Shown piece after piece: positions 4,889 through 32,816 of a stretch of 33,030 nt of DNA. Each line of letters opens with the position of its first letter. Position 1 is the first letter of the stretch. The notes below the pieces were generated by a model. That model was not told where the DNA came from and searched no databases. It saw nothing but the letters and a program-made list of their open reading frames with translations. A program made the translations under genes and the position numbers. The DNA is taken from contig NZ_JAAKZG010000027.1 in the NCBI RefSeq assembly GCF_011045115.1, positions 1-33,030 on the forward strand. The letters run 5' to 3'. The stretch is from Mesorhizobium zhangyense. Lineage in GTDB: Bacteria; Pseudomonadota; Alphaproteobacteria; Rhizobiales; Rhizobiaceae.

Positions 4889-4893
4889 GAATT

Positions 4894-7220: not shown

Positions 7221-7252
7221 TGCACTGTGTATTTTTGATCTATACGACACCT
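7221..7252. promoter_or_regulatory. Candidate regulator-binding region upstream of the transporter operon
   Basis: The 207-base gap between the binding-protein gene (starts at 7183, minus) and the phosphoesterase gene must hold the transporter operon's promoter. It contains CACTGTGTAT at 7223-7232, then ATACGACAC at 7242-7250, giving a loose dyad (GTGT...ACAC). The 9-mer ACTGTGTAT recurs at 10281-10289 in front of the GntR and amidohydrolase genes. Shared binding by the GntR protein is inferred. Confidence 0.4.
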
Positions 7253-7391
7253 CATTTCGTCGCAAGTAAAAATTCCGAATGCGACAAATAATTCCGACAG
7301 TTAGGACGCAACAATACAAGAAAAACGCGATATAGACTGCGCGTCGAAATATCGATGCACATCGGAATTCCGCTATACTTACATGGACGAG

Positions 7392-8138: not shown

Positions 8139-8152
8139 GTTTGAACTCCGCT

Positions 8153-9470: not shown

Positions 9471-9471
9471 C

Positions 9472-10248: not shown

Positions 10249-10280
10249 TCTCAAGTGTCCTTTTTATCGATTGTGCGTTG

Positions 10281-10300
10281 ACTGTGTATAGACCGTGTAT
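10281..10300. promoter_or_regulatory. Candidate GntR operator in the divergent promoter region
   Basis: Between the GntR gene (start 10248, minus) and the amidohydrolase (start 10366, plus) there is TGTGTAT at 10283-10289 and CGTGTAT at 10294-10300. These are two near-identical heptamers 11 bases apart, about one helical turn. The first belongs to a 9-mer shared with 7224-7232 upstream of the transporter operon. Autoregulation and cluster control by the GntR protein is a reasonable inference. Confidence 0.45.
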
Positions 10301-10365
10301 TTATGAATGGCAACCACAAAGCAGCGAGCGGCGACACCGCCGTCAATTTTTCAGAAGAGGATTTC

Positions 10366-11766
10366 ATGATGTCAGAGCTGGTCTACGATCTGATCATAAG
10401 TGGCGGAACTTATTGGACTTCCAGCGGCAGCTGCAAGGCGGACATTGCGGTTTTGGGCGACAAGATCGTGGCAATCGGCACCGCATTTCCTCATGCGAAG
10501 AAACGGATTGACGCCAGGGGGTTGGACATCCTACCGGGCATTTGGCACGTTCATTGCCACTTCCGTGAACCTGGTCACAGCTACAAGGAAGATTTCGAAA
10601 GCGGGACGCGCGCAGCCGCCGCAGGTGGTGTGGCCGTCTGCATCGACATGACCAACAACACTCCACACCCGACGACACTTGAAGACTTCGAGGCGAAGAA
10701 GGCGCTCGTCGCACCCAAAGCCCACATCGATTATGCGCTCTATGGCGGAGGCCTGTACCCGCAGACCGTCGATCAATTGGCCAAAGCCGGTGCGATCGGG
10801 ATCAAGATTTTCAACACGCGGCATATCAAGGAGGTGTACCCGTACATCTCAGAGCTTGGCGTTCTGGATCACGGTATCCTCTATGAACTTTATGAGGCCA
10901 CTCGCGATACTGGCTTGCGAGCATCCGTGCACCACGACGACCCGGAATGGTGCAAGCGAATGACGTTCCGCGACTACATTGAGAAGGGGCGCACAGACGC
11001 TGTCTCCTACCATGAGAGCTTCGCCAAGGGATACATGTACGGCCATGGCATGGTCGCAGGGCTGGCATCCTCGCTCTATTATGCACGCGTCGCAGGTGTG
11101 AAACTGCATGTTCTGCATTTGGGCGTCATGCCGGTCGGAGCATACGAGATGATCCGCCACGCGAAATTCGACCTGGGCCAGGAGGTTACTGCGGAACTGG
11201 AACTGGGCTCGATGTTCATGACACGCGAGCAGATGAGAAAGGTCGGGCCGAATTCCTACAACTGGGCGCACAGCCCTGAAGATGGATGGAACAGCATCGA
11301 GTCTGGCGTAGCGGACGTAATCGTTCTGGAGCACGCGCCTCATACTTTCGAGGAAACCAAGCCCGGCTGGGAGGACATGTTCTCCATCCCTCTCGGCATG
11401 ACGGGCGCGCAGGAATTCGTGCCGATGATGCTTAACGCCGTACACAATGGAAAACTGACGCTCTCGAAGATCGCCACATTGGCAGCCGAACGTCCGGCAC
11501 AGCTTTACGGGCAATACCCCAAAAAGGGCGTTATCCAGGTCGGGTCTGATGCCGATTTCACCATTGTCGACATGAACGCGGAGATCGTTTTCCGCAAGGA
11601 AGACATGTTCTCCAAGGCCGGTCACACGAGTTGGGAAGGTATGAAGGCGAAAGGCGTCCCACAGCACACAATCGTGCGGGGGCAGTCCGTGATGGAGCAT
11701 GGCAGGGTTATCGGATCGCCGGGTTACGGAATGTTCATTACGGGAAAAGCCGCTACGCAACGCTAA
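10366..11766 (+). CDS. Dihydroorotase/hydantoinase-like amidohydrolase
   Basis: A 466-residue metal-dependent cyclic amidase of the amidohydrolase superfamily (dihydroorotase, allantoinase, D-hydantoinase group), which opens cyclic amide rings. The metal motif is HVHCHFREPG (His63-x-His65), the lysine that would be carboxylated is in IGIKIFN (Lys147), and further histidines are in ASVHHDDPEW (189/190) and KLHVLHLG (248/251). The usual catalytic Asp before HAPH is Glu322 here (VIVLEHAPHT), and the position normally Asp in DxHxH is His61. I chose the ATG at 10366 (MMSELVYDLIISGG) because AGAGGA sits 4-5 bases upstream; an ATG at 10303 adds an unlikely tail. It is divergent from the GntR gene. 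With the racemase-like protein it suggests hydantoin or cyclic-ureide use, but no N-carbamoylase is present. Confidence 0.85.
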   Translation: MMSELVYDLIISGGTYWTSSGSCKADIAVLGDKIVAIGTAFPHAKKRIDARGLDILPGIWHVHCHFREPGHSYKEDFESGTRAAAAGGVAVCIDMTNNTPHPTTLEDFEAKKALVAPKAHIDYALYGGGLYPQTVDQLAKAGAIGIKIFNTRHIKEVYPYISELGVLDHGILYELYEATRDTGLRASVHHDDPEWCKRMTFRDYIEKGRTDAVSYHESFAKGYMYGHGMVAGLASSLYYARVAGVKLHVLHLGVMPVGAYEMIRHAKFDLGQEVTAELELGSMFMTREQMRKVGPNSYNWAHSPEDGWNSIESGVADVIVLEHAPHTFEETKPGWEDMFSIPLGMTGAQEFVPMMLNAVHNGKLTLSKIATLAAERPAQLYGQYPKKGVIQVGSDADFTIVDMNAEIVFRKEDMFSKAGHTSWEGMKAKGVPQHTIVRGQSVMEHGRVIGSPGYGMFITGKAATQR

Positions 11767-11783
11767 TTCGTTGGGACATAGCA

Positions 11784-12527
11784 ATGACAATCGACGCACT
11801 TACAGATTGCATCACCTATGCGTATATCGATGAGCCGCCTTTCGGTTACTTGGGGCCGGCAGGCGAAGCAGAGGGCTACGACATCGATATCGCGCGTTAC
11901 GTCGCTAGTGAGATGGGGTTCGACGCTTTCAAAGCGCAAATGGTGTCTTTTGGTGAGCTAGCTGAAGGGGTGAGTGCCAATCGTTGGATGATAAACACAG
12001 CAATGTTTACAACAGCGGAGCGCTCAAAAGTCGTTTCCTTTAGTCGCCCTATATGGCGTCTGAAGGATGGTTTTGCCATGCGTAGAGAGGATGGCCTCGA
12101 TATCGAGAATTATGAGGATTTAGCCCTTAGAAAAAACCTCAGAGTTGGGGCGGTTCGAGGAAATGTTCAGGTCCAACTAGCGTTAGAAGCAGGCCTGAAT
12201 CCGGCAAATCTGACGCTGTTTAAAACTCAAGCCGAGGTATTCGATCAAATTATGAACAATAATATTGATGTTTATCCCGGAGCGGCCTTAGCGCACCGCC
12301 GTTTCATTTCCAGAGCGGGCCTCACTGGGCTGGAGAATAGGAGTGTTGCAAGGGATGAGCTTCCTGGAGGGCAGGCGTTTGGGGCTTTTTCATTTAATAA
12401 GGAAGCCGTTGGCTTTGCATCAGCTTTTGACGATAAACTTGATGCCTTTCTTGGCAGCAAAGAGCATAGAGCCATTGCTGGCAGACATGGCTTGGATGAC
12501 TGGGAGGCTCTGCTGGCCCCAGCATAA
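11784..12527 (+). CDS. Substrate-binding-protein fold (SBP_bac_3) without a signal peptide
   Basis: A 247-residue protein whose pattern is that of amino-acid-binding proteins: ITYAYIDEPPFGYLGPAGEA, EGYDIDIARYVASEMGF, SFGELAEGVSANRWMINTAM, FTTAERSKVVSFSRPIW and a second lobe with LRVGAVRGNVQVQLAL. From the ATG at 11784 (17 bases after the amidohydrolase stop) it begins MTIDALTDCITYAY with no basic-hydrophobic leader, so it should stay in the cytoplasm unless a leader is encoded elsewhere. A longer upstream frame only overlaps the amidohydrolase gene and gives no leader either. Its A+T content is higher than that of the preceding gene. It may be a cytoplasmic ligand sensor or an enzyme on the binding-protein fold, or a binding protein that lost its leader. 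Confidence 0.75.
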   Translation: MTIDALTDCITYAYIDEPPFGYLGPAGEAEGYDIDIARYVASEMGFDAFKAQMVSFGELAEGVSANRWMINTAMFTTAERSKVVSFSRPIWRLKDGFAMRREDGLDIENYEDLALRKNLRVGAVRGNVQVQLALEAGLNPANLTLFKTQAEVFDQIMNNNIDVYPGAALAHRRFISRAGLTGLENRSVARDELPGGQAFGAFSFNKEAVGFASAFDDKLDAFLGSKEHRAIAGRHGLDDWEALLAPA

Positions 12528-12551
12528 TTGCAAATACTACCAAACAGGTGT

Positions 12552-12632
12552 CTAGGCCCTGTTGATATAAGTGGGCATCCATAGTTTTGCGGCGGCGATT
12601 GCCAAGAAGCCAAGGAACGAGACGGCGGTTTT
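12552..12632 (-). pseudogene. Possible transposase C-terminal relic
   Basis: One minus-strand frame ends KTAVSFLGFLAIAAAKLWMP then TYINRA and a stop. This looks like the end of an IS5-type transposase (…KTA.SFLGFL.LAA..LW…). Nothing upstream continues the domain convincingly. It lies in a 603-base gene-free stretch (12528-13130) that otherwise holds dispersed-repeat copy B and no feature I can name. Confidence 0.3.
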
Positions 12633-12806
12633 GGATGGGAGCACATCAATCTCACCGGAGAGTATCGCTGGCCAAAGCCCTAGCGTAGGATTCCGCCCCC
12701 TCCCGCGAATGACCCCAGATAGGACCGCCTCGACTGCCGGCCGACACACCTAGACCGATTCCTCCTGTTATTTCAGTAGTTTACTATCGATCTTCCAGCC
12801 CTCATT

Positions 12807-13002
12807 TTAGAGGGCTATAGCGTAGACGTAGTTCTCATCATCGCCCGGCGCGGCGCGCCAAATACCGTCGATTGCCCTCCACAATACGCTGTAGCCGCCG
12901 AACGTACGCCTATGCATAGAACGAAGGACAGTCGGTGCGCGAGAAGGCGTAGAAACGACGGCGTTCGGCGGTGAACAAGTTCGAATCGCTTACGGTCGAA
13001 CT
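12807..13002 (-). repeat. Dispersed decayed repeat, copy B
   Basis: This is the most complete copy. On the minus strand the segment shared with copy A (12852-13002) contains FTAERRRFYAF. After a frame change it reads TFGGYSVLWRAIDGIWRAAP and ends GDDENYVYAIAL plus a stop. The terminal part (12807-12860) is shared with copy C at 23077-23130, and the last codons with copy D at 19201-19251. All copies end at the same stop position, so they look like relics of one gene family's 3' end. No intact member lies in the window and I do not know the family. Confidence 0.65.
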
Positions 13003-13130: not shown

Positions 13131-13887
13131 TCAATATTCGTCGAGTGCCTCCAGCACGAGTTCCGCCGTAAGCGCGCTGCTGTACTGCTGCTGGCCGGTG
13201 ATAAGACGTCCGTCGCGAATGGCGAACGGTTCGTTGGCACCATGGCACAGGAAGCTGGTGCCCTTGATGCCAGCGGCCTCGCTCTGGATGGTGTATTCGT
13301 TGAGCGTCATGCCGAAGGCGGCGTTGACCTCCTCTTCCTCCTCGTCGGTGAAGCCGGTCCATTTCTTGCCGTCGGCGAGCAGCTTCCCGTTGGACAGATG
13401 GGTCCACAATAGGAGGCCGGACCCGTGGCAGATCAGAGCGACGATCTTGTCTTTCTCATAGAAGGACGCGATCAGATCATGCAGTGCTGTGCCATCCTTG
13501 AAGGTCAGCAGCGGCCCGCCGCCACCGGCCACCCAGACCGCGTCGTAGCCTCCACCGACACGGCGCTGATCGGGATGGTGTTCTTCAGCATCGCACCGAA
13601 TTTCGTGTGGTGTGCGAAGCCCAGGCTGATGAGGTCGTCGGCATAGGCGCCACCGGGCGTGCGGGGATCGCTATGGGTTCGAACATCACCTCGCCGCCTT
13701 TCGGCGAGGCGAGATCGACCTGATGTCCAGCTTCGGTGAACATCAGGAAGGCGCGCGTCATTTCCTCGGCGAAGAAGCCAACCGGAAAGCCCTTGAGCGT
13801 GGTCGTGTTGGAAACAATCGACAGGATGCTGCGTGGCTTGCGCTTTGCGCCGATGCGGGTTTCGATTTTCAGGTCTGATGCAGGCAT
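13131..13887 (-). pseudogene. DJ-1/PfpI family protein (type 1 glutamine amidotransferase-like), two frameshifts
   Basis: Joined across frames, this encodes a protein of about 250 residues of the DJ-1/PfpI/Hsp31 superfamily, whose members act as glyoxalases, deglycases or chaperones. The start MPASDLKIETRIGAKRKPRS and ILSIVSNTTTLKGFPVGFFA come from one frame. A second frame gives TPGGAYADDLISLGFAHHTK, and a third gives YDAVWVAGGGGPLLTFKDG and ALICHGSGLLLW with the nucleophile-elbow cysteine. The breaks lie near 13671 and 13560, each explained by a one-base change. Two independent shifts make a real pseudogene likely, though sequencing error at both cannot be excluded. The active-site Cys is still encoded. 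It is separated from the kefB-type operon by about 145 bases. Confidence 0.8.
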
Positions 13888-14032
13888 TGAAAGGCCTTTT
13901 CTTATCTCGTTTTGCAGGATGGCTGGCGCCAGGGCTGTCGATTGCAGCGGCATCAATCTCCTGAGGCGGCGAAGCGTCAGGGGCGGCGGAGAACGCCGCT
14001 GCAAAATGCCCGGAAGCTATTTGTCGCCGAAA

Positions 14033-14527
14033 CTACTCCAGCGTGAACGTGTCGGCACTGCACGCGCCCAACACGTCCGGCGTGTATTTGCGCCAGTCAT
14101 CGATGCTGAGCATCCCGATGCGAACAGCGCCATCCCCGAGCTGATGGCTCATGTCCATGACGGTAAGCCATCGCACCGGCTCATCGCAAAAGCCGTTCTT
14201 GCCCTTGTTTTGCGAGAAGAACGCGTCAGCATTGAGGACCTTGTATACGTTTCCGCCGTAGTCCGCATCGCTGCCGTTGTTCCAGACGTCGGCGTACTGG
14301 AGCTTCAGTTCCCCTTTGAGCTTGGAGAAACTCGCCGACGTGCGACTGAGCTTCATTGTGTTTCCCAAGGTCGAAGACGTGCCATCGGACAGGGCAGAAT
14401 AGGAGCGCGCATTGTCGGTCGGCATGGGGTCGATTTTTGATTTCGCGGCGGCGCCGAAGGCAAACAGCAAGCCAACGGGAGCTGCGACTAGTAGGCCGGT
14501 CAACGTCCTGCGTCTGGATTTTGTCAT
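14033..14527 (-). CDS. Secreted protein of unknown function
   Basis: A 164-residue protein with an N-terminal export signal: a basic start MTKSRRRTLTGLL, then a hydrophobic stretch ending near FAFGAAAKS. The mature part is polar and holds only two cysteines (114 and 156), which could form a disulfide in the periplasm. I recognise no domain; recurrent features are YADVWNNGSDADYGGNVYK and LTVMDMSHQLGDGAVRIG. A good ribosome site (GAGAGGAAAATCC then ATG) supports the start. It lies 18 bases after the DUF924 gene and is probably the last gene of that operon. Confidence 0.75.
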   Translation of the reverse strand: MTKSRRRTLTGLLVAAPVGLLFAFGAAAKSKIDPMPTDNARSYSALSDGTSSTLGNTMKLSRTSASFSKLKGELKLQYADVWNNGSDADYGGNVYKVLNADAFFSQNKGKNGFCDEPVRWLTVMDMSHQLGDGAVRIGMLSIDDWRKYTPDVLGACSADTFTLE

Positions 14528-21909: not shown

Positions 21910-22999
21910 CAGGCGGTCTCCGTCATGAGCTTGGGCAGCCGCACCAGATTGTAGGCGGCTGCCGCGAAGGTGAAGGCCCATCCGACACGGTCGCGACCGC
22001 GGAACTTCGTCTTGTCCTGCCCCGCGACCGTCTTGATCCAGCCGAACGCCTCCTCGATGCGCTTCCTGATGCGCTGGCTGGCGGCATAGCCGCCGTGGCG
22101 GGTCGTGCGGCCGTCGATCGCCGAACGTCGGCCGCTGGTGTTCCGCGCCACGTGCGGCGTCACCTTCATCGAGCGCAACTCGTTGACGAGGTCCTCCGTG
22201 TCGTAAGCCTTGTCGGCGCCGAGCGTGATCCGCGTGGCCGATCGGCCAGGGGCTCGATCATATGCAGCGCCGCCACCCACTCGGCATGCCCGTCGGCGAA
22301 GGTCAGGCAGGCGTCGACCAGAAGACCGTGGCGGTTCTCCATCAGGCCATGCCCCATGAAGCACAGCTTCGCCTCCTTGCCCTTGCCCTTCTTGTAGAGT
22401 CTGGCCTCCGGGTCGGTGGTCGAGCCATGGGTGTCGTTGGCCCGCTTCTGCCCGTGGAAATCCGCTTCGGCATTGCGCCCACCGCCTTGAACCGGCGGCT
22501 CACCGGAGCCATCCCTCGGCTTGACGCTCTTCATCGACGCCCAGGCCTCGATCAGCGTGCCGTCGACCGAGAAGTGATCGCTCGACAGAAGCCGCTTGAC
22601 CCTGGGCTGCGCCAGCACCGCCGCCAGGAACTTCGCCGCGATGTCGCCTTCCAGCAGCCGGTCGCGGTTCTTTGAGAATGTCGAGTGGTTCCACGCCGCG
22701 TCATCAACCCCGATGCCGACGAACCAGCGGAACAGAAGATCGTATTCCAGCCGCTCCATCAGGAGCCGTTCCGAGCGGATCGAGTAGAACGCCTGAAGGA
22801 GCATCGCCCGCAGCAGCTTCTCCGGCGGGATCGACGGCCGCCCGATCGGAGAATAGAGCGCCGCAAACTCCCCTTTCAACGCGTCGAGCGCCTCGTTCAC
22901 GATCATCCGGATCGCTCGCAGCGGATGGTCGCGCCGAACCCGAGCCTCCAGATCCACGTAGCTGAAAAGCTCGCCCGTCCGCTTGTCCTCACCGCGCAT
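21909..22999 (-). pseudogene. IS5-family DDE transposase, frameshifted
   Basis: The first frame (from the ATG at 22999, MRGEDKRTGELFSYVDLEAR) runs through DALKGEFAALYSPIGRPSIP, SERLLMERLEYDLLFRWFVG and the first catalytic Asp in HFSVDGTLIEAW. The second frame carries TRITLGADKAYDTEDLV with the second Asp and RKRIEEAFGWIKTVAG with the Glu, ending LVRLPKLMTETA. The frames join near 22230-22240, where one base appears to be missing (ADR then ATRITLGADK). All three DDE residues survive, split over two frames. There is no A-rich slippery heptamer, so I read it as a mutation, not programmed frameshifting. Confidence 0.85.
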
Positions 23000-23076
23000 G
23001 CATCGGTCTCCGAATCCCTTCGAAGACAATGAATCACGGCGAACGCCCTGCGGCGAGCGGCTTTTTCAACAGCCTG

Positions 23077-23130: not shown

Positions 23131-23391
23131 GATTCTACAACAAATTCAAATTGTTACTTTTCGTACGATTCTCATTGCCGCTTGGGCTAGGGAAATTGCA
23201 ACCACATTGCAACGAAGGCGATGGAAGCTGAACTCGGGTCGCAACATCGTCTCACAACGGAGAACGTGTGGGCGAAGCTATTGCCGCTCGATCACGCCCA
23301 TCGGACGACGACATCGCCAGCAGCGTCTTGTGGATATTGTGCGCCGGGACGGGATACCATGTGATGGACTAACTCGATGCACATCAAGCAG

Positions 23392-23877
23392 CTAACCAAT
23401 ATAATTTCGCAGCTGGCTGACCATTGATCGGTAGTCTTCGTCGCGCAGCACAATTCTACCCGCGTTCTGGAATATCCGTGCGTGTCCCGGTCGGTCTCCC
23501 AAAAAACGCGGCTTTATGTGGCAGTGCAAATGCGGGACGACATTGCCCTGGATTTCAAGATTGATTTTGATGGGCGAGAGAACGCGTTGAAGCGCCTGGC
23601 TTGCATCAGCGATATCATCGACGAATCTGCTACGAACTTCCTTCTCCAATTCGAACAGCTCGACCGCATGGCTGCTCAGGACAAGAATGCTATAGCCTCT
23701 GATATACTGATTTTGGCCCAATATCCACCGTGAAACCCTGAGATCGGCGACCTTGTGCCCTTCCGAACTTACGGCCGTGTCGGCCTCAAGCAGACTGCAT
23801 AGTTCACACGCTGTGCCTGTAATGCGGTTTTGCCATTTCTGGTCGAGTTTCCATTCTGCCTCTCTGTCATCGTTCAT
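23392..23877 (-). CDS. HIT-family protein
   Basis: A 161-residue histidine-triad protein, a family of nucleotidyl hydrolases and transferases (HINT, Fhit and relatives). The triad is in VVPHLHCHIKPRF (His116, 118, 120), with the upstream nucleotide-binding region SRWILGQNQYIRGYSILVLS. CELC (Cys24, Cys27) near the N-terminus could form the zinc site seen in many bacterial HIT proteins. It is divergent from the TctC gene across 257 bases. There is no clear functional tie to that operon, though nucleotidyl or phosphate chemistry is possible. Confidence 0.9.
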   Translation of the reverse strand: MNDDREAEWKLDQKWQNRITGTACELCSLLEADTAVSSEGHKVADLRVSRWILGQNQYIRGYSILVLSSHAVELFELEKEVRSRFVDDIADASQALQRVLSPIKINLEIQGNVVPHLHCHIKPRFLGDRPGHARIFQNAGRIVLRDEDYRSMVSQLRNYIG

Positions 23878-24012
23878 TTTGGTTCAATGCCCATGTCGGC
23901 GGCGGATCGCCTCAGCCAATGTCCCTACAGATGCAGTGACAAAGTAGTCGATAAAAATTTCCTTGTCCCTTCATCAGAGAAGCCGACAGACTGACCGCGC
24001 TTCACATGCACC

Positions 24013-24030
24013 ACTTGTCGAACAACAAGT
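24013..24030. promoter_or_regulatory. Dyad upstream of the tripartite transporter operon
   Basis: ACTTGT (24013-24018) and ACAAGT (24025-24030) are perfect reverse complements 6 bases apart, 104 bases before the TctC start. The spacing contains T-N11-A, the LysR-type core, so this is the best candidate operator for the LysR protein encoded at 27138. Confidence 0.45.
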
Positions 24031-24134
24031 TTATTTTCATGGCCTTGCGACCGGCAGCAGGGAGATTGTCATGGGACTGTCAAGCAGATTGCACAAGGAG
24101 GGTGCGCTTGACAGATCAGCAAGGGAGAGATGAC

Positions 24135-25112
24135 ATGATCAATCGACGTAATATGCTTTTGGCGACTGCCGCTGTTTTTGGAACGGCGCAACTGACTGCA
24201 CCCCGCCAAACTTTCGCTCAGGATTCGGTGTTTGACCGATTCAGCCTGTTTGTGCCGTCTGGTGTCGGTGGAGGCTGGGACGGTGTGGCTCGAGCAATCG
24301 ACCAAGTTGGGCGTAAAGCGGGACTGCTCTCGCAAGTCACCATTGACAATGTTCCGGGTGCGGGCGGAACGGTCGGCCTGCCGCTGTTCATAAATCAACA
24401 TCGGGGCCGCGATAGCTCCCTGATGATTGCCGGCAACGTTATGATGGCAGCCATCATCACGAATAAGACCCCCTACGGCTTGCAGGATGTTACTCCTGTC
24501 GCCAGGTTAACGCAGGAAGCCAGTGTAATTGCGGTCGGTGCTTCCAGCCCCTACCAGACAATCGACGACCTAGTTGACGCGCTAAAGAAGAACCCGGGTC
24601 TTCCTATTGGCGGAGGGTCAGCTGGTGGAATCGACCACATTATCCTTGGCTTAACTCTGAAGGCGATCGGCGCCGACGTGACCAAGGCCAATTACGTCGC
24701 TTTCTCGGAAAAGGCCCAAGCTATGGCCTCGATGATGGAGAACCAAGTTCATGCCGCTTTGAGCGGTTACTCTGAGTATGCCGAACAAATCAGGGCTGGT
24801 AATCTGCGCGCGCTGGCAACAACTGGAGAGCTTCCGTTGGAAGGGGCAGGCGTTCCAACGCTCAAGCAGATCGGTATTGACGTTGCACTGACAAGTTGGC
24901 GCGGCGTATTTGCTCCCCCGGAAGTTTCAGAAGAACAAGTTGCAAGGTTGGTGGGGCTCATAACGGCGGTTCACGACCAGCCGGATTGGAAGCAAATACT
25001 CAAAGACCGGCAATGGGACGATGCGTTTGCGACGGGTCCCGATCTCAAGGCAGCCATCGCCAATGATCGTGCGGCTATACAAACGGCCTTAAAGGCAATC
25101 GGTCTAGCCTAA
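24135..25112 (+). CDS. tctC: Tripartite tricarboxylate transporter substrate-binding protein (TctC/Bug family)
   Basis: A 325-residue periplasmic receptor. The signal peptide MINRRNMLLATAAVFGTAQ ends near TFAQDS and has a twin-arginine-like start. The mature Bug fold shows LFVPSGVGGGWDGVARAIDQ, VTIDNVPGAGGTVGLPLFIN, LPIGGGSAGGIDHIILGLTL and LTSWRGVFAPPEVSEEQVAR. Bug proteins bind carboxylates (citrate, malate, tricarballylate, aromatic acids), usually through the carboxyl groups. The ATG at 24135 has GGGAGA upstream; the longer frame from 24006 adds an unlikely leader. First gene of the transporter operon. Confidence 0.93.
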   Translation: MINRRNMLLATAAVFGTAQLTAPRQTFAQDSVFDRFSLFVPSGVGGGWDGVARAIDQVGRKAGLLSQVTIDNVPGAGGTVGLPLFINQHRGRDSSLMIAGNVMMAAIITNKTPYGLQDVTPVARLTQEASVIAVGASSPYQTIDDLVDALKKNPGLPIGGGSAGGIDHIILGLTLKAIGADVTKANYVAFSEKAQAMASMMENQVHAALSGYSEYAEQIRAGNLRALATTGELPLEGAGVPTLKQIGIDVALTSWRGVFAPPEVSEEQVARLVGLITAVHDQPDWKQILKDRQWDDAFATGPDLKAAIANDRAAIQTALKAIGLA

Positions 25113-25113
25113 C

Positions 25114-25632
25114 ATGACGAAATTTGCACGACTTCGGCGTTCAGGGGCATTACCTGACGTCATCATCGGCGTTGCCATGGTGCTACTAGCAGTGGCCATG
25201 GCGATGGCGATCGCGACGATTAAGACATCCCCAGGATATGCCTACGTTGGCCCCAGGGTGTTTCCGTTCGCGGTAGCCTTGTTCCTGGGCCTCGTGGGCA
25301 TGGGTCTCGCGATCTCGGCATTTCTTGGCGTAGACGGGAGCGGCTCTGCTGATTTTCCCGACACGTCTCCTGGAAAGCCAAGCCCAACCATGGCGTGGGT
25401 CGTTGGTGGCTTAGTCGCCAATTTGGTTGGACTTGCTTTGCTTGGATTCGTGTTTGCGGCGATCATCCAATACGTCATGACCGCTCGCGGTTTTGGAAGT
25501 CGCAGATGGAGGCTCGACGCCGTCTGTGGGCTCGCTCTCGCTTCTTGCGCCTACTTACTGTTTTCGGAGGTCCTCAAGGTAAACATACCTGCCGGTCCCG
25601 TACTGGAGCTAATACATAAATGGATAATCTAG
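25114..25632 (+). CDS. tctB: Tripartite tricarboxylate transporter small membrane subunit (TctB family)
   Basis: A 172-residue membrane protein with four likely helices: [60 protein letters not shown] and [20 protein letters not shown]. The pattern [13 protein letters not shown] is the TctB signature region. It starts one base after the TctC stop and overlaps TctA by 13 bases, so the three subunits are co-translated. Confidence 0.92.
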
Positions 25633-27137
25633 TTTCGCTTGCATATGGCTTCAGCCAAGCAATGACGCCGATAAACATCGCGTGGGCGTTCCTGGGCTGC
25701 TTCGTGGGTACAGCGATCGGGGTTCTCCCTGGCATTGGACCCGCATTAACGATAGCAGTTCTATTGCCTATTACGGCGCAGGTACCGGCTAGTGCCGCGT
25801 TTATTTTTTTTGCGGGCATTTACTACGGTGCTGGCTACGGCGGCTCGACAACATCGATTCTGCTGAACATCCCGGGCGAAAGCTCAACGGTCATAACGGC
25901 AATTGAGGGCCACCAGATGGCGCTCAACGGACGCGCTGGGCCTGCTTTGGCCACTGCCGCGATAGGGAGCTTCGTTGCCGGCACAATTGGAACTGTTGCC
26001 CTCACGGTGTTTGGTCCGCTCGTGGCCCAGATAGGCCTTAAGTTCGGCCCGACCGAAATGTTTGCTATCATGATTTTCGCATTCATGACATCGGCCGCGG
26101 TTCTCGGTAATTCGATGCTCCGAGGGCTCGCATCACTTGGCATTGGCTTGAGTTTGGGCATCGTGGGGGTGGATTTGCAGACAGGACAATCCCGCCTAAC
26201 CTTCGGTGTTCCAGAGCTTCTCGACGGTATTGACGTAATCATGGTTGCTGTCGCCCTGTTTGCAGTCGCCGAAACACTACACACGGCGCTGTTGTGGCGA
26301 CCAGACGGAGTAACCGTGATCAAGCCTCAGGGGGCAATGTGGCTAACTCGACGGGACTGGCAGCGGAGTTGGAAGCCTTGGTTGCGTGGAGCTGCGGTTG
26401 GCTTCCCGCTGGGCGCACTACCACTGGGCGGCGGAGAAATCCCCACCTTTGTATCCTACGCTCTGGAGAAGCGGTTATCCAAGCGGCCAGACAAATTTGG
26501 CCGTGGGGCCATCGAAGGTGTGGCTGGGCCTGAAGCCGCCAACAATGCTGCCGGTGCAGGTGTTTTGGTGCCGATGCTCACTCTGGGTCTGCCGACATCA
26601 ACGACGGCGGCGCTTTTGCTGACGGCCTTTCAGAACTACGGGATTCAGCCTGGACCATTCCTATTTGCCACCCAAGGACCGTTAATCTGGACCTTGATTG
26701 CGAGTCTCTATATCGGCAACGTCATTTTGCTGGTGCTGAATCTACCCCTGATCAGCTTATGGGTACGAATTTTGCGTATTCCCCCGCATCACTTCTTTGC
26801 TGGGGTCCTGATCTTCGTCACAATCGGCGTTTACGGGATCAGCGGTTCGATATTCGACGTTGCGCTTCTTTATCTTATCGGCGGAATCGGTCTTGTCATG
26901 CGCAGATACGGATTTCCACCTGCGCCTGTCATTATCGGTTTGGTTCTGGGGCCGTTGCTGGAGCAATCCTTCAGACAATCAATTGCGATAGGCCAAGGTG
27001 ATCCGGGGGTGTTCCTCTCTCGTCCGATCGCTTGCGCTTTGCTGGTGGTCGCTCTGATTATTCCTATTCTGATCGGTATCATGTCGCTCATTAATTGGAT
27101 CAAGCAACCGCCGGTCGGCGTAGACTCGGGGTCGTGA
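25620..27137 (+). CDS. tctA: Tripartite tricarboxylate transporter large permease subunit (TctA family)
   Basis: A 505-residue permease with about 11-12 membrane helices. The family signatures are [40 protein letters not shown] with GESS, and in the second half [20 protein letters not shown] followed by TTAALL. It imports the acid captured by TctC using the ion gradient. The stop is directly followed by the ATG of a LysR gene, which is probably in the same transcript. Confidence 0.95.
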
Positions 27138-28055
27138 ATGCTGAAAAAGGACGCGCGGCTGAGAGCATTCCACACCGTTGTTACGCTCGGCAGCTTTACA
27201 AGAGCAGCAGACGCACTTTCGCTGAGTCAGCAAGCAGTGTCGTTCCAAGTCAAATCCCTTGAGGACGAACTTGGAACGCGGCTACTGCAAAGGCAGGGGA
27301 AGAACATTGGCCTAACCGAAACCGGCGAGATATTGTTTCGCTACGCCAAACAGATTCTCGATCTATACTCGGCGGCCGAAGACGCCTTGGCCAAAAAAAC
27401 TGGATCGATGGGAGGATCGTTGAGCATCGGGGCGACCGGGAGTATCGCCAAATACTGTCTGCCAAGAGCGATTGGAGAGTTCCGCAAGGCTCATCAATCG
27501 GTGACAGTTGCAGTCTCGGTGGCCAACTCAGAGCGAGTCGCCGAGCTTCTATCTCAGGAGGCTGTTGACTTAGGGATCATCAGCGGCGGCTCAGTAGAGC
27601 TCAGTCGTTTCATAGTCGAACCGTTCTTCGAGGATGAGCTAGTTTTCATTGCGGCCAGCAAAAATCCCCTGACTTCAAGAAAATCGTTGTCGTTGCGTGA
27701 ACTTTTGGCTTCCCAGTTTATCATCCGCGAAAAAGGCTCGGGTACCAGAGACCTCATGGAAGGATATTTTCGCGATCGCGGCATCGATGGATCTGCACTT
27801 TCCGTGTCGACGATGATGGGCAGCACGGATGCTGTCAAAGCGTCTGTGGCGTCTTCAGACGGAATCGCGATGGTTTCCAAGCTATCTCTAGGGGGGCCCG
27901 GAAACGAGGATTTAACGATATTGGATGTCGAGACCGATCCCCTCGTTCGCAGTTTCTACATCGTGCGGCTGCGTGACAGCTACTTGCGTCGTGTTCTAGA
28001 TCACTTCGTTAGAGCATTGCGCACCAGCAATTCGTTCCGGTCCCCGGGACATTAG
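27138..28055 (+). CDS. LysR-family regulator of the transporter/catabolic operon
   Basis: A 305-residue LysR protein of the CysB/CbbR-like branch. The helix-turn-helix is FHTVVTLGSFTRAADALSLS followed by QQAVSFQVKSLEDELGTRLL. The effector domain starts near residue 92 and has the branch motif FIIREKGSGTRDLMEGYF. The ATG immediately follows the TctA stop, so it is transcribed with the transporter rather than divergently, unusual for LysR genes. It probably senses the imported acid or a product and acts at 24013 and/or the 154-base gap before the CoA-transferase. Confidence 0.93.
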   Translation: MLKKDARLRAFHTVVTLGSFTRAADALSLSQQAVSFQVKSLEDELGTRLLQRQGKNIGLTETGEILFRYAKQILDLYSAAEDALAKKTGSMGGSLSIGATGSIAKYCLPRAIGEFRKAHQSVTVAVSVANSERVAELLSQEAVDLGIISGGSVELSRFIVEPFFEDELVFIAASKNPLTSRKSLSLRELLASQFIIREKGSGTRDLMEGYFRDRGIDGSALSVSTMMGSTDAVKASVASSDGIAMVSKLSLGGPGNEDLTILDVETDPLVRSFYIVRLRDSYLRRVLDHFVRALRTSNSFRSPGH

Positions 28056-28209
28056 CGCGGCCAATCCAGCAATAAAGCAGAGTCATCGCGGTCCGTCGAT
28101 ATTCACGGATGATGCATTCCCACAATTTACTAGACTGGCCACAAAGACGATCTGTTAGATTTCGTCACCCTGCTCCGCCATTGTTCCTACCATCAAACAG
28201 GAGGAGCGT

Positions 28210-29403
28210 GTGCAGAAAGCAGCACTAGCAGGAATAAGAGTTCTCGATCTATCGAGACTCGTTGCGGGGAACATGGCAACCCTGCAGCTCGCCGACTTTG
28301 GCGCAGATGTTATTAAGATTGAGCAGCCTGGAACTGGCGATCCACTTCGCCAGTGGCGGAAAAGCAATCTTGACCTGTGGTGGCGGGAATATGGCCGAAA
28401 CAAGCGCAGCCTATCCTTGAATCTTAAGTCACCGCGTGGCCGGGCGATTCTGCTCAAGCTCGTTGCCCAGTCGGACGTGCTCGTCGAAAACTTCATTCCT
28501 GGAAAGCTTATAGAGATCGGTCTCTCCTACGATATTCTTCTGGAGACCAATCCCAAACTCGTGATCCTCAGCATAACCGCCTGGGGACACGATGGTCCCT
28601 ACCGAGACAAGCCTGGGTTCGGTACTCTCGTCGAGGCGATGAGCGGTTTTGCTTCCATGCTCGGCTTTGCAGACCGCCCACCAACCCTGCCACCCATCCC
28701 AATCGCGGATATGATCACCGGCCTTTATGGGGCGCTGGCTTGCATGATGGCCCTTCGCCACCGCGACGCGACAGGCGCGGGGCAAGTCATTGACCTGTCA
28801 CTGTTAGAAGCAATGTATTCTGTGTTGGGCCCGGTTGCGGCAGAGTACGAGAGAACAGGCAAGTTTCCAAAAAGGAATGGAAACCGTTCGCCAAATTCGG
28901 CGCCGCGCAACAGTTACAAGACATTGGACGACAAATGGATCGCACTTTCGGCTTCTACGCCGCTGATGGCTGAGAAACTGTTCAAATCCGTCGGGTTGGA
29001 GGACGTGCTGCAGGACGAGCGCTTTAGCACTAATGAGGCGCGGGTCCGAAATGGAGATGAGACCGACACGATCGTGGCTAATGCGATACGAAAGTTCACT
29101 TTGTCCGACCTGATGGCGCTCTTCGACGAAACTGGAGTTGCAGGAGCACCAATTTACGACGTTCCGCAATTCGTGGAGGATCCGCATGTTAAGGAGCGCG
29201 GTATCTTAATCGAGGTGAATGATCCGAAGCTGGGATCATATAGGATGCATGCTCCACTACCTCGCTTCAGCAGTTCGCCCGGCGCAATTCGCTTCCCCGG
29301 CGCTAGGCTCGGCCAGCACAATCAAGAGATATTGTCTTCCCTACTGAATCTGGAGGAGGCCGATATCAACGAGTTGCAGGCCGCCGGAGTTATCGGATCA
29401 TGA
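28210..29403 (+). CDS. Class III (CaiB/BaiF, formyl-CoA-transferase family) CoA-transferase
   Basis: A 397-residue CoA-transferase that moves CoA from an acyl-CoA donor to a carboxylate. The start LAGIRVLDLSRLVAGNMATL with QLADFGADVIKIEQPGTGDP is the family N-terminus. NKRSLSLNLKSPRGR is the CoA-binding stretch, and Asp167 (PIADMITGLYGALA) is the catalytic aspartate that forms the anhydride/thioester. GTG start at 28210 with AGGAGGA about 5 bases upstream. The stop overlaps the lyase gene by 4 bases, so CoA activation and cleavage are coupled. In itaconate or citramalate pathways the same class makes the CoA ester that is then split. Confidence 0.94.
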   Translation: MQKAALAGIRVLDLSRLVAGNMATLQLADFGADVIKIEQPGTGDPLRQWRKSNLDLWWREYGRNKRSLSLNLKSPRGRAILLKLVAQSDVLVENFIPGKLIEIGLSYDILLETNPKLVILSITAWGHDGPYRDKPGFGTLVEAMSGFASMLGFADRPPTLPPIPIADMITGLYGALACMMALRHRDATGAGQVIDLSLLEAMYSVLGPVAAEYERTGKFPKRNGNRSPNSAPRNSYKTLDDKWIALSASTPLMAEKLFKSVGLEDVLQDERFSTNEARVRNGDETDTIVANAIRKFTLSDLMALFDETGVAGAPIYDVPQFVEDPHVKERGILIEVNDPKLGSYRMHAPLPRFSSSPGAIRFPGARLGQHNQEILSSLLNLEEADINELQAAGVIGS

Positions 29404-30182
29404 GCCGATCTCCGTTTGCATCCCCTGAGCTTTGGCCAACGGCCATCACGACTTTCGACCATGATGACATCGTCATCCGTGGTAAAAAGGTCGAAGACTT
29501 AATGGGACATGGTAATTTCGGTGACATTGCCTTCCTGCTTCTAAGCGGCCGTATGCCGTCTCCCGCCGAATCAATGGTCTGGAACGCAGTGATGATCGCG
29601 TCGTGTGATCACGGACCCACCTCGCCCTCGACTTTCGCGGCAAGGGTCGTGGCAAGCGGTAATCGCCGGGCGCCGGAGGCTGGCGTCGCTGCCGGAATTC
29701 TCGCTATCGGTGATGCTCATGGTGGCGCTGGTGAGGAGGCCATGACTTACATTCGCGAGGCGTTGACGGTCAAGGCGATCGAAGGTCTATCCAGCGCGGC
29801 CGCCGCCGAGAAAATAGTGGATCGATACCGGCAGGCGGGGCTACGTCTTCCTGGCATGGGACATCGATTTCACGCCGTTGATCCTCGAACCAAGCGTCTT
29901 TGGGACCTTGCCCAACAGTGGGGCGTAGCGAGCGGGGGAGTCGCCATGATGGCTAAAATACAAATGGCGCTCTCAGCCTCAGTCGGTCGCGAGATGCCCG
30001 TAAACGTGGACGGGGCAATTGCGGCTGCCCTTGTAGACCTAGGTTTCGACCCTCCAATTGGACGCATGGCTTTTATTCTTGGAAGAGCCGCGGGCATTGC
30101 GTCGCACGTCCTTGAAGAACTGGCCCGAGAAAAACCGATGCGCTTCCGCTTCGACTTTTCCTATGACGGCCCTCAGCAATAG
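29400..30182 (+). CDS. Citrate-synthase-fold lyase, citryl-CoA lyase-like
   Basis: A 260-residue protein, much shorter than citrate synthase (about 430), matching the compact citryl-CoA lyase/ATP-citrate-lyase C-terminal type. The catalytic set is complete: His107 in GDAHGGAG, His155 in GMGHRFH and Asp204 in VNVDGAI, with Arg229 in LGRAAG. This class cleaves citryl-CoA to acetyl-CoA and oxaloacetate, or the reverse. It overlaps the CoA-transferase by ATGA. Its 2-oxoacid product would pass to the PEP-mutase-family enzyme, 14 bases downstream. If that product is phosphonopyruvate, the substrate would be the CoA ester of 2-phosphonomethylmalate; this is inference. Confidence 0.9.
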   Translation: MSRSPFASPELWPTAITTFDHDDIVIRGKKVEDLMGHGNFGDIAFLLLSGRMPSPAESMVWNAVMIASCDHGPTSPSTFAARVVASGNRRAPEAGVAAGILAIGDAHGGAGEEAMTYIREALTVKAIEGLSSAAAAEKIVDRYRQAGLRLPGMGHRFHAVDPRTKRLWDLAQQWGVASGGVAMMAKIQMALSASVGREMPVNVDGAIAAALVDLGFDPPIGRMAFILGRAAGIASHVLEELAREKPMRFRFDFSYDGPQQ

Positions 30183-30196
30183 GTAGTGAACTGCAA

Positions 30197-31069
30197 ATGG
30201 CAAAACTTTCCGATTTGCGTGATGCAATCGATCAAAAGCTGCTCGTAAGAGCAATGGCAGCCCACTCACCGCTCTCCGCATTGCTGGCAGAAGAGGCTGG
30301 CTTCGATGCACTTTGGGCCTCCGGCTTCGAGCTCTCGGCGCTCTACGGTCTAGCCGATGTCAGCCTGATATCGATGACACAGCATCTCGATATGGTGCGG
30401 GCGATGGGTGAGCAATCGTCGCTGCCGATCATCGCCGATATCGATACCGGTTTCGGCAACGCGATTAACGTAATCTACGCCATCGAGCAGTATGAACGTG
30501 CCGGTGCTGCTGCCGTCGTCATCGAGGACAAGACCTTTCCGAAGGTGACTAGTCTCGTAGCCGACGGCCGGCAAGATTTGCTGAGGCTTGAGGAATTCCA
30601 GGGCAAGATTCGCGCAGCGATTGCGACTCGGTCTGATCCTAACTTTCTGATCATCGCTCGCACAGAAGCGCTGATCGCAGGACTCGGCGAGGAAGAAGCA
30701 CTAAAGCGCGCCGCGGCCTATGAGGCGGCGGGCGCCGACATGATCCTTGTCCACTCCAAGCAGAAGACCCCAGACGAGGTTGAGAGCTTCGTCCGCGCCT
30801 GGAGTGGGAAGGCGCCGGTCGCAATCGTTCCCACGGCCTACCCGGAAATGAACGAGGAACGCATCAAAACACTCGGTAAGATCGCCATCGTGATCTACGG
30901 CAACCATGCCATCCGCGCATCAGTGACAGCGATGAAGGATGTTTTCGCACGCATCCTCAAGGACGGCGGCATCCACAACGTCAACCGGGACATCGTCTCG
31001 GTAGAGGAGGTGTTCCGTTTGCAGAAGATGGATCAGGTCAAGGCCGACGAGAAGCGCTTCCTCGCCTGA
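30197..31069 (+). CDS. Phosphonopyruvate hydrolase-type enzyme (PEP mutase/isocitrate lyase superfamily)
   Basis: A 290-residue TIM-barrel enzyme. AMAAHSPLSALLAEEAGFDA, WASGFELSALYGLAD and ADIDTGFGNAIN (metal Asp81/Asp83) match phosphonopyruvate hydrolase PphA (PalA) of Variovorax from recall, more closely than methylisocitrate lyase. The gating loop EDKTFPKVTSLVADG has Lys116, Thr118 and Ser119. PEP mutases have Asn where phosphonopyruvate hydrolase has Thr118, and here Thr falls at exactly that number. Arg155 (IIARTEA) and His186 (LVHSKQKTPDE) are also conserved. The reaction is hydrolysis of 3-phosphonopyruvate to pyruvate and phosphate. Alternatives are PEP mutase or oxaloacetate decarboxylase activity. 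It is last in the catabolic run and is followed by a Na/Pi cotransporter-family gene. Confidence 0.85.
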   Translation: MAKLSDLRDAIDQKLLVRAMAAHSPLSALLAEEAGFDALWASGFELSALYGLADVSLISMTQHLDMVRAMGEQSSLPIIADIDTGFGNAINVIYAIEQYERAGAAAVVIEDKTFPKVTSLVADGRQDLLRLEEFQGKIRAAIATRSDPNFLIIARTEALIAGLGEEEALKRAAAYEAAGADMILVHSKQKTPDEVESFVRAWSGKAPVAIVPTAYPEMNEERIKTLGKIAIVIYGNHAIRASVTAMKDVFARILKDGGIHNVNRDIVSVEEVFRLQKMDQVKADEKRFLA

Positions 31070-31178
31070 CACTGTCTGCGCCGGACTGAAGTCTTGAGGA
31101 CCCCGCATTCGCTGCGTTCGCGTTGATGGCGCCGAGCCAGGGCGTTCGTCAAATCCGGTTCATATTAGGGACGTCCCA

Positions 31179-32816
31179 ATGCTTGACCTGATTGGCGCTG
31201 TCGCACTGCTACTATGGGGTCTTCGGATGGTGAAGACCGGCGTGAGGCGGGCGTTTGGCGCCCGTCTGCGCCGCTGGATAGCGGCCGGCACACGTAACCG
31301 GCCGATGGCTTTCGGCGTCGGCCTTGCCGCCACTATGGCGCTGCAGAGCAGCACGGCTACTGCATTGATGACAGCCTCATTCGCTGGCAGTGGCTTTATG
31401 AACTCGGCCATGGCCCAGGCCATCATGCTTGGCGCCAACGTTGGCACCAGCCTGGTCACGCGGATTTTAGCCTTCGACATCCACTGGCTGGCGCCTCTGT
31501 TGGTCGCCGTCGGTGTCGGTATGTTTACCATCAGCGAAGCCAAGCCACACAAGGGGATCGCGCGGGCCGTGCTTGGCCTTGGTCTAATGCTACTGTCCCT
31601 CCACCTTCTCGGACAATCGACCGAACCGATGCGGCAGTCTGAAGTAGTGCGCGCTCTGATGGCATCACTTGATACGGTGCCGATGTTGGCCGTTATTGTC
31701 GCCGCCGTGCTGGCAATCAGCTCTTCATCGAGCCTCGCCATCGTCCTGCTCGTTATGTCGTTGGCTGCCAGCGGAACAGTCGGACCCAGTCTCGGCGTTA
31801 CCCTGATTCTTGGCGCCAATCTCGGCGGCGCTATTCCTCCAGTGTTGGCTACGCTTGGTGATGGGCCGCCGGCGCGACGGGTGACAGTTGGCAATCTCGC
31901 CGTCCGGATGCTCGGCTGCGTGGTCATGTTGACCTTCGTCGATCAGGCGGCTTCGGCTCTCTCAGGCTTCGCCTCGGACCCAGCGCAACTCGTTGTTTAC
32001 GCGCACATCGCATTCAATTTGCTGCTCGCCGCGATCATGATGCCGCTGCTCGATGCCTTTTCGTGGGCGATGCGCCGGCTGCTGCCGGAAACTCCGATGC
32101 AGGGCGACGGTTCTCGCCATCTCAATCAGGCAAGTCTCAGCAATCCGGCAATGGCGCTTGCCGGTGCAGTCCGAGAGACGCTGCATATCGGCGACAGCGT
32201 GATCAGCATGTTGCAAAAGAATCTGGAAGCGTTGCGCCGGAACGATACCAAGCTCTGCTCCGATATTGCTGCGATGGACGACGAGGTCGATCGCCTGAAC
32301 GAACAGGTCAAGGTCTATCTCTCCAATCTGAACCGGACCATCCTCGAGGAGGATAATGCCCAACGTTCGGCCGAGATCGTTTCCTACGCCATCAATCTCG
32401 AACATATCGGCGACATCATCGATAAGAACCTGCGCGATCTGGTCGAGAAGAAGATCAGGAACCAGCTCAGCTTCTCAGCCGAAGGCGCCGCTGAAATCGA
32501 GGACTTCTATATGCGCACGCTGGAGAACCTGCGCATAGCGCAGAGCGTCTTCGTCGCCCGTGATGTCGGCCTTGCTCGGCAGCTCGTCGGCATGAAGGTC
32601 GATGTTCGGCATTACGAGCAGCAATCAGCGGCGAACCATCTCCATCGCCTGCGCGACGGCAGGATAGAGAGCGTCCAGACCAGTGCGCTGCACCTCGACA
32701 TCCTGCGCGACCTCAAGCGCATCAATGCCCACGTCACTTCCATCGCCTATCCCATTTTGAAGGAAGCGGGTGAGCTGCGTGATTCGCGTCTGATAGAGGC
32801 GAAAGGTCCGGCATAG
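31179..32816 (+). CDS. Na/Pi cotransporter family protein with PhoU-like C-terminal domain
   Basis: A 545-residue membrane protein of the NptA/PNaS family. Two inverted repeats carry the signature: QSSTATALM (56-64) with GANVGT (85-90), and in the second half LAISSSSSLAIVLLVMSL with LILGANLGGAIPPVL. Residues about 330-520 are a helical PhoU-like domain (IEDFYMRTLENLRIAQS, ...HLHRLRDGRIESVQ...). Family members move phosphate with sodium; some bacterial ones act as low-affinity exporters. AGGGA precedes the ATG at a normal distance. It lies 109 bases after the phosphonopyruvate-hydrolase-type gene on the same strand, so a role in handling released phosphate is plausible, though it may have its own promoter. 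Confidence 0.92.
   Translation: MLDLIGAVALLLWGLRMVKTGVRRAFGARLRRWIAAGTRNRPMAFGVGLAATMALQSSTATALMTASFAGSGFMNSAMAQAIMLGANVGTSLVTRILAFDIHWLAPLLVAVGVGMFTISEAKPHKGIARAVLGLGLMLLSLHLLGQSTEPMRQSEVVRALMASLDTVPMLAVIVAAVLAISSSSSLAIVLLVMSLAASGTVGPSLGVTLILGANLGGAIPPVLATLGDGPPARRVTVGNLAVRMLGCVVMLTFVDQAASALSGFASDPAQLVVYAHIAFNLLLAAIMMPLLDAFSWAMRRLLPETPMQGDGSRHLNQASLSNPAMALAGAVRETLHIGDSVISMLQKNLEALRRNDTKLCSDIAAMDDEVDRLNEQVKVYLSNLNRTILEEDNAQRSAEIVSYAINLEHIGDIIDKNLRDLVEKKIRNQLSFSAEGAAEIEDFYMRTLENLRIAQSVFVARDVGLARQLVGMKVDVRHYEQQSAANHLHRLRDGRIESVQTSALHLDILRDLKRINAHVTSIAYPILKEAGELRDSRLIEAKGPA

Follow-up and report, generated by a model that had tools for sequence, protein, structure and literature searches.

Citryl-CoA lyase acts in the reductive tricarboxylic acid cycle, and the rhizopine systems (mos/moc) of Sinorhizobium and Rhizobium contain linked synthesis and catabolism genes, with nif-type promoters on the synthesis genes. 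According to the available part of a review of phosphonate degradation, the phosphonoalanine pathway of Variovorax sp. Pal2 consists of the aminotransferase PalB, the phosphonopyruvate hydrolase (PPH) PalA, the transporters PalCDE and the LysR-type regulator PalR; PalA was reported there to be very specific for phosphonopyruvate, and LysR regulators to act in other operons for hydrolases of the carbon–phosphorus (C-P) bond (PMC10574752). The formation of 2-phosphonomethylmalate (2-Pmm), the phosphonate analogue of citrate, from acetyl-coenzyme A (acetyl-CoA) is described as established in the FR-900098, fosfomycin and pantaphos pathways in the accessible text of another paper (PMC12871164). 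Here, a cluster of eight genes in Mesorhizobium zhangyense, a soil bacterium with legume symbionts among its relatives, was compared with these systems. It is located at positions 24135-32816 of contig NZ_JAAKZG010000027.1, the entire 33030 bases of which were analyzed and are referred to as the window. The gene families and their linkage make it probable that this cluster is a substrate-induced operon for using 2-Pmm or a simple derivative of it.

Like the Pal2 pathway, the window contains a gene of the same C-P cleaving enzyme family, a gene for a LysR-type regulator and a linked transporter. Unlike it, the window operon includes no aminotransferase, uptake would proceed via a tripartite tricarboxylate transporter (TTT) and phosphonopyruvate would come from CoA-dependent cleavage. 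The citryl-CoA-lyase-like protein (CCL) is of the same short citrate-synthase-derived lyase type as citryl-CoA lyase, but it is paired with a class III CoA-transferase (CaiB) and a C-P hydrolase, and its proposed substrate differs. The FrbC (FR-900098), HvrC (pantaphos) and fosfomycin pathways involve the same compound and the same carbon–carbon bond, which is formed there and would be broken here. Their products are antibiotics or a phytotoxin, whereas the window operon is read as one of breakdown, in a genome without phosphoenolpyruvate (PEP) mutase.

In the proposed route, TctABC would import 2-Pmm, CaiB would transfer CoA to its carboxymethyl group and CCL would cleave the thioester in a retro-Claisen reaction to acetyl-CoA and phosphonopyruvate, which PPH would hydrolyze to pyruvate and phosphate. 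The Na/Pi-PhoU protein would handle the surplus phosphate, and LysR would sense the substrate and control expression. The route would thus be 2-Pmm synthesis reversed down to phosphonopyruvate and followed by hydrolysis. Each of these reactions is inferred, as are the regulation and the direction in which either transporter works. The genes are as follows:

24135..25112, +: TctC, periplasmic solute-binding protein of the TTT (PF03401, E 3.8e-24)
25114..25632, +: TctB, small membrane subunit (PF07331, E 4.2e-17)
25620..27137, +: TctA, large membrane subunit (PF01970, E 7.1e-147; 57% identity to TctA of Agrobacterium vitis)
27138..28055, +: LysR regulator, presumably activating the operon in response to the substrate (PF00126 and PF03466)
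28210..29403, +: CaiB-type (class III) CoA-transferase, presumed to form the CoA thioester of 2-Pmm (PF02515, E 5.9e-114)
29400..30182, +: CCL, 260 residues, presumed 2-phosphonomethylmalyl-CoA lyase giving acetyl-CoA and phosphonopyruvate (NF004869)
30197..31069, +: PalA-type PPH, 290 residues, presumed to give pyruvate and phosphate (TIGR02321)
31179..32816, +: PhoU-domain protein of the Na/Pi cotransporter family, presumably removing the phosphate set free (PF02690 and PF01895)

All eight open frames are arranged head to tail on the plus strand. The gaps are 1 base between TctC (ATG at 24135) and TctB, -13 between TctB and TctA, 0 between TctA and LysR, 154 between LysR and CaiB, -4 between CaiB and CCL, 14 between CCL and PPH and 109 between PPH and the Na/Pi gene. 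A complete TTT set was found, with TctA, TctB and TctC side by side. The sequence-only reading of the window had named these eight genes, their families and an ATGA overlap of CaiB and CCL, and all of this was confirmed by the open frames, domain matches and gaps.

The hydrolase belongs to the PEP mutase/isocitrate lyase superfamily. Its score with TIGR02321, the curated PPH equivalog model, was 395.9 bits, above the cut-off of 374.4 bits, and the closest PDB structure was Variovorax Pal2 PPH (2dua, E 8e-110). In a 52-row tree, the protein falls in a 24-row PPH set together with Pal2 PPH (support 98/96), and the PPH and PEP mutase groups each require one change; most rhizobial members of the PPH set have a PalB-like aminotransferase as a neighbour. 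The loop reads EDKTFPKVTSL in the window protein, EDKTFPKDTSL in 2dua and EDKLFPKTNSL in Mytilus PEP mutase, and we take the Thr versus Asn difference in the EDK-x-FPK-x-[T/N]-S loop to separate PPH from PEP mutase activity. Three other identities were considered and rejected, namely PEP mutase (289.8 bits against a cut-off of 319.55, with the wrong loop residue as well), methylisocitrate lyase (164.2 bits against 354.4) and the oxaloacetate decarboxylase type (99.6 bits for the match to the PA4872 structure against 369.6 for PPH). Judged by the curated cut-off and the tree, the window hydrolase is a member of the PPH family. The sequence-only reading was right in calling it a phosphonopyruvate-hydrolase-type enzyme, and the methylisocitrate lyase or oxaloacetate decarboxylase type, which it had held out as the alternative, does not agree with this family assignment.

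The same operon was found in Mesorhizobium temperatum (locus L035), where positions 3984-12986 align with window positions 23388-32395 at 90.8% DNA identity; TctC is 94% and CCL 95% identical. The gene order from TctC to PPH is kept, which makes the operon more than a chance array. In L035, genes of a putative synthesis arm are convergent with the operon and end within about 4 kb of its end:

13207-14040, convergent with the operon: methyltransferase
stop codon at 14089, start codon ATG at 15237 preceded by a Shine-Dalgarno-like sequence, -: homocitrate-synthase-like protein (PF00682), candidate 2-Pmm synthase
convergent with the operon: PEP mutase (TIGR02320, 344.2 bits, cut-off 319.55)

These genes would form phosphonopyruvate by PEP mutase and then condense it with acetyl-CoA. 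NifV (homocitrate synthase) was rejected as the identity of the M. temperatum synthase on the basis of its score (397.7 against the nifV cut-off of 462.9), of the tree and of a separate NifV-type gene, which is located elsewhere in the genome and is 39% identical. In the tree the synthase groups with six proteins of phosphonate-type contexts (97/98), apart from 19 Mesorhizobium NifV-type proteins. Among the best 60 of its 163 plasmid matches, the relatives were 73.7% (Bradyrhizobium sp. 62B), 63% (A. tumefaciens, B. japonicum), 61% (Burkholderia stagnalis), 60.5% (onion strains of Pantoea agglomerans) and 58% (Streptomyces scopuliridis) identical, and annotated nifV proteins reached at most 45%. 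A PEP mutase-family gene lies within 10 kb of the synthase relative in five of the six stretches fetched, the exception being Bradyrhizobium 62B, in which a methyltransferase gene comes after the synthase gene and its product shares 56.6% identity with the M. temperatum methyltransferase. The gene order in P. agglomerans (aepX, monooxygenase, synthase homologue, aconitase-type, methyltransferase, GNAT, MFS) is similar to that of the published hvr operon. HvrC of this operon is described, in the available portion of the report, as a homologue of the characterised 2-Pmm synthase, and the operon also encodes a putative O-methyltransferase, HvrF (PMC7858074). As a separate observation, the 9-kb plasmids of the beetle symbiont Candidatus Stammera capleta (CP144773.1-CP144861.1, CP145604.1) encode unannotated proteins 49-57% identical to the synthase (best 60 of 163 matches).

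A second combination of synthesis and breakdown genes was found on a plasmid of Agrobacterium vitis CG78 (L158; a second record of equal length shows identical match positions). It contains genes for LysR, PEP mutase (346.8 bits, above the cut-off), a citrate-synthase-fold protein, a TauE-type exporter and a sugar-phosphate-isomerase-like protein, as well as TctA, TctB, two TctC, CaiB (60%), CCL (55%), a PEP mutase-family protein with the loop EDKVFPKRTSL and GntR. The window TctC is about 36% identical to both A. vitis TctC proteins, and the window LysR is 42% identical to the LysR preceding the A. vitis PEP mutase. The CCL gene overlaps that of the loop-bearing protein, the presumed hydrolase, which falls on the PPH side of the tree (100/99) and whose Thr, PTAYP and IYGN agree with PPH and not with PEP mutase. 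The citrate-synthase-fold protein (PF00285) stayed below every listed citrate synthase cut-off (best 398.4 against 421.3); its other plasmid relatives, among the 25 of 106 matches listed, are at most 45% identical and are either annotated as citrate or methylcitrate synthases or unannotated. Fosfomycin synthesis presumably has a citrate-synthase-type 2-Pmm synthase (Psf2), and it is on this and on the context that the A. vitis candidate rests. Here, too, PEP mutase and a condensation of phosphonopyruvate with acetyl-CoA would make up the synthesis side. Thus, two candidate 2-Pmm synthases of unlike fold, PF00682 in M. temperatum and PF00285 in A. vitis, accompany the CaiB-CCL-hydrolase set. 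A search for co-occurrence of these genes had been proposed from the sequence, and both relatives with CaiB, CCL and hydrolase proved to have a PEP mutase and a candidate 2-Pmm synthase within 10 kb. The linkage to candidate synthesis genes in two relatives was observed, like the gene content, family membership and conserved linkage of the operon itself, and suggests a make-it-and-eat-it nutrient system.

A comparison with loci in which PPH is accompanied by other enzymes was made using 146 genomes from the same genus as M. temperatum, 44 of which matched in the search for PPH and PEP mutase at E 1e-40. A full-length match at the PPH level (at least 353 bits) was found in 25 genomes, 24 of which also had a match at the PEP mutase level (202-234 bits), in 23 cases on the same contig; the remaining 19 of the 44 comprised 17 genomes with a PEP mutase-level match only and two with fragments. 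Sixteen of the 23 genomes (17 loci) were fetched together with two Sinorhizobium/Ensifer genomes and a Rhizobium indigoferae plasmid, which, with M. temperatum excluded, gave 19 loci with both PEP mutase and PPH. A synthesis arm of an aminotransferase, a nucleotidyltransferase and a CDP-alcohol phosphatidyltransferase-like gene was present in all 19, and a PalB-like aminotransferase adjoins PPH in 16; CaiB, CCL or 2-Pmm synthase was found in none of the 19 at the bit-score thresholds used. The only two CaiB/CCL loci with PEP mutase, those of M. temperatum and A. vitis, have neither aminotransferase. For 19/19 versus 2/2, Fisher's p is 0.005, uncorrected for the kinship of these related strains. 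The breakdown enzymes thus change together with the synthesis enzymes. The proposal of 2-Pmm as the substrate, which the sequence-only reading had drawn from enzyme logic, gains support from this swap (0/19), from the PPH identity of the hydrolase and from the synthase linkage in two relatives. The aminotransferase-type loci form a candidate phosphonoalanine-ester synthesis-and-breakdown system in rhizobia. Such an arrangement was seen at L209:12663-27089 (R. indigoferae) and in the joined loci L111-L149, with PEP mutase, aminotransferase, cytidylyltransferase and CDP-alcohol phosphatidyltransferase together with LysR, PalB-like aminotransferase, PPH and ATP-binding cassette (ABC) uptake genes. 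Near PPH in L209, a Na/Pi symporter and a PhoU protein are also encoded, the best piece being 62% identical to the window protein.

The CaiB of the window contains a full-length CoA_transf_3 domain (residues 6-371 on profile positions 1-366) and reaches no NCBIfam donor/acceptor equivalog cut-off, the best being NF052585 with 272.5 against 750; it is 60% identical to the A. vitis protein and about 72% to those of Sinorhizobium. CCL, a short citrate-synthase C-domain protein with citryl-CoA lyase 6hxp as its best PDB match, exceeds the NCBIfam cut-offs of the subfamily model NF004869 (233.2 against 212) and of NF004868 (197.9 against 193), and does not reach the equivalog models NF004864, NF004867 and NF004865. 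It is about 65% identical to the Sinorhizobium/Ensifer proteins and 55% to that of A. vitis. Residues N88, R89, E244, K245 and R248 are common to all seven members of the CCL clade, which represent only three lineages, and occur in none of the 37 other CCL-type proteins compared. N88-R89 are encoded at window positions 29661-29666, and the others lie in a C-terminal EKPMR stretch (residues 244-248). It is possible that these clade-specific residues are phosphonate-binding changes.

The distribution of this CCL is narrow. A scan of genome contigs, which finds close relatives only, gave five loci. Among the 146 Mesorhizobium-genus genomes, 92 had a CCL-type match at E 1e-20; the same CCL was found in M. 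temperatum only, and all the others were at most 38% identical. In the window's family, 91 of 394 genomes matched at this E-value, the window genome counted, and only one other exceeded 42% (G430, 64%). All 124 matching plasmid records were below 60%, with A. vitis at the top. The Sinorhizobium/Ensifer loci L036-L039 and L196 carry CaiB-CCL, and L036 also has a cupin-domain gene. The CaiB of B. guangxiense (52%) was rejected as part of the same system; its neighbours, a CoA ester lyase and TcuA, point to a different system.

Promoter motifs were found at the synthesis genes. Upstream of the M. temperatum synthase are TGT-N10-ACA (15381, -), a TGGCACGCCTTTTGCA element (15287, -), the Shine-Dalgarno-like sequence and the ATG at 15237, and its PEP mutase has a similar NifA/sigma-54-like pair with a -12 element off consensus. 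In a relaxed scan of the fetched stretches under a post hoc rule, the pair was present at 11 of 25 PEP mutase upstreams (six of these 25 rows lack a clear loop motif but were included as PEP mutase) versus 10 of 557 other open frames longer than 200 residues; in a stricter first scan, with GC required at -12, the counts were 6 of 25 and 8 of 557. The strains are related, and the eleven positive upstreams represent about four promoter types by eye. Four of the ten positives outside PEP mutase are Sinorhizobium/Ensifer CaiB genes. The CaiB upstreams of L036-L039 (before 8811) and L196 (before 8138) carry TGT-N10-ACA and a TGGCACG-type -24/-12 element, a pair like that of the M. temperatum PEP mutase. 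A sigma-54-type element was seen before none of 21 PPH genes, most of which are not first in their operons, no element linked to an upstream activating sequence was seen before the window CaiB or TctC, and no such motif pair was present at the A. vitis PEP mutase. The only TGT-N10-ACA (24385) and -24/-12-like match (24872) of the window operon lie inside TctC, 487 bases apart, and were given no weight. By these motif matches, the M. temperatum synthesis genes may be under symbiotic (nif) control.

Several observations weigh against the use of 2-Pmm. The window genome contains no PEP mutase (all 11 candidates were scored, the best being the window PPH with 43% and the next 29%), no 2-Pmm synthase (best 31%) and no nifH over the cut-off, so that this organism appears to have the consuming half only; a PF13714 match on contig 56 (242 bits) has neither a PEP mutase loop nor a PEP mutase match and was rejected. 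Independent loci joining synthesis genes to CaiB, CCL and a hydrolase number only two. In one of them, the A. vitis hydrolase scores 287.8 with the PEP mutase model versus 189.6 with the PPH model, both below the cut-off, and sits on a long branch; in the other, the Na/Pi gene, intact in the window, looks broken, apparently split over two frames (L035:11813-13232). No Na/Pi match was found near PPH in the 18 comparison loci other than that of R. indigoferae. CaiB/CCL was absent from all ten PPH loci compared in other families of the class (L197-L206, in some cases on short contigs); one of these loci has the PalB-like enzyme. Within about 10 kb of the Sinorhizobium/Ensifer CaiB-CCL genes (L036-L039, L196), neither PPH nor PEP mutase nor TctA was found. 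At E 1e-30, two of the four named genomes have neither PPH nor PEP mutase anywhere; in the other two, genes at the PPH level (355-360 bits, below the cut-off) and of the PEP mutase type are located elsewhere. In addition, a methyltransferase belongs to the M. temperatum synthesis arm, which suggests that the compound actually made may carry a methyl group, and no obvious demethylating enzyme or esterase was recognised in the window operon.

The Sinorhizobium arrangement, with CaiB-CCL at a distance from PPH or in genomes lacking it, is what would be expected if the pair acted on an ordinary tricarboxylic acid such as citrate, homocitrate or methylcitrate and PPH were an accidental or independent neighbour or used phosphonopyruvate of another source. 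TTT systems, moreover, commonly carry citrate-like acids. This explanation is nevertheless unlikely given that 14 bases separate the CCL gene from the hydrolase gene in the window, that these two genes overlap in A. vitis, that M. temperatum and A. vitis each have a PEP mutase and a candidate 2-Pmm synthase nearby and that M. temperatum has its separate NifV-type gene. The same Sinorhizobium loci, with their nif-type motifs upstream of CaiB, could point to CaiB-CCL being run synthetically, from acetyl-CoA and phosphonopyruvate to 2-Pmm, at least in that group. We consider this very improbable: the window pair comes after an importer and before a hydrolase, which would break down the precursor, and no PEP mutase was found at E 1e-30 in two of the Sinorhizobium/Ensifer genomes.

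A derivative of 2-Pmm, such as an O-methyl ester formed by the adjacent methyltransferase or a product of dehydration or isomerisation, could also enter the same last steps, which would be a sub-case of 2-Pmm use and shares part of its probability. The methyltransferases that follow the synthase in M. temperatum and Bradyrhizobium sp. 62B speak for it, as does HvrF in the hvr operon, as far as the consulted text describes it (PMC7858074). It is, however, a somewhat doubtful possibility in view of the missing esterase or demethylase in the window operon and of the A. vitis stretch, in the incomplete gene table of which no methyltransferase is annotated. That synthesis and breakdown adjoin in two relatives and that 2-Pmm lies en route to antibiotics and a phytotoxin, according to the parts of two papers available (PMC7858074, PMC12871164), would also suit detoxification or self-protection, with the operon removing 2-Pmm or related citrate mimics that would inhibit aconitase-type enzymes. 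By argument only, a dedicated importer with a binding protein would be odd for protection and the Na/Pi protein suggests bulk phosphate release, and this role seems improbable. Catabolism of 2-Pmm or a simple derivative is the reading preferred here.

The surroundings of the operon were also inspected. Upstream of it, the window encodes a HIT-domain protein (23392-23877, -) and a transposase-type protein (DUF772; 22166-23029, -). The latter gene lies directly upstream of the stretch shared with M. temperatum. This stretch starts at about 23388 and, being beside a transposase-type gene, may have moved as an island. The contig ends 214 bases past the Na/Pi gene, and a further LysR gene apparently starts in this tail, as read from the sequence.

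Each of the enzyme families is known, and what would be new is the joined route and its pairing with synthesis genes. No description of a CoA-dependent route into the PPH pathway was found in the open-licence PubMed Central literature searched, as far as the retrieved parts of the texts extend, and neither "citryl" nor "phosphonomethylmal" occurs in the phosphonate degradation review (PMC10574752). Titles and the beginnings of abstracts likewise gave no literature linking rhizopines and phosphonates, and the partial texts found on phosphonate, bacteroid and NifA describe no such system.

A possible parallel in organization is with rhizopines. In M. temperatum and A. vitis, though not in the window genome, candidate synthesis genes are linked to presumed catabolic genes, and the M. 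temperatum synthesis genes carry nif-type motifs; the difference is that a phosphonate would take the place of an inosamine and that the window genome contains the catabolic half only, with no nifH over the cut-off. A broader proposal of phosphonate rhizopines, which we put forward tentatively as a real possibility, would be that legume-nodule bacteria make phosphonates in nodules as private nutrients via NifA/sigma-54 PEP mutase operons and that the compound made is taken up and mineralised through linked operons of the LysR type. As parts of this same tentative proposal, the compound would be 2-Pmm in M. temperatum and a phosphonoalanine ester in other rhizobia, the front end would be CaiB-CCL or PalB with a shared PPH, and the window genome would be that of a consumer living on the compounds of others. 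The proposal fits the promoters and the linkage, and motifs and gene order are its basis. If the route is true, it would provide a CoA-dependent entry to the PPH pathway, in which the C-P bond is broken independently of C-P lyase and of any aminotransferase, and 2-Pmm would have a role outside antibiotic synthesis. The opine/rhizopine idea would then extend to phosphorus, and the pairing of synthesis and breakdown would predict exchange between nodule and soil bacteria.

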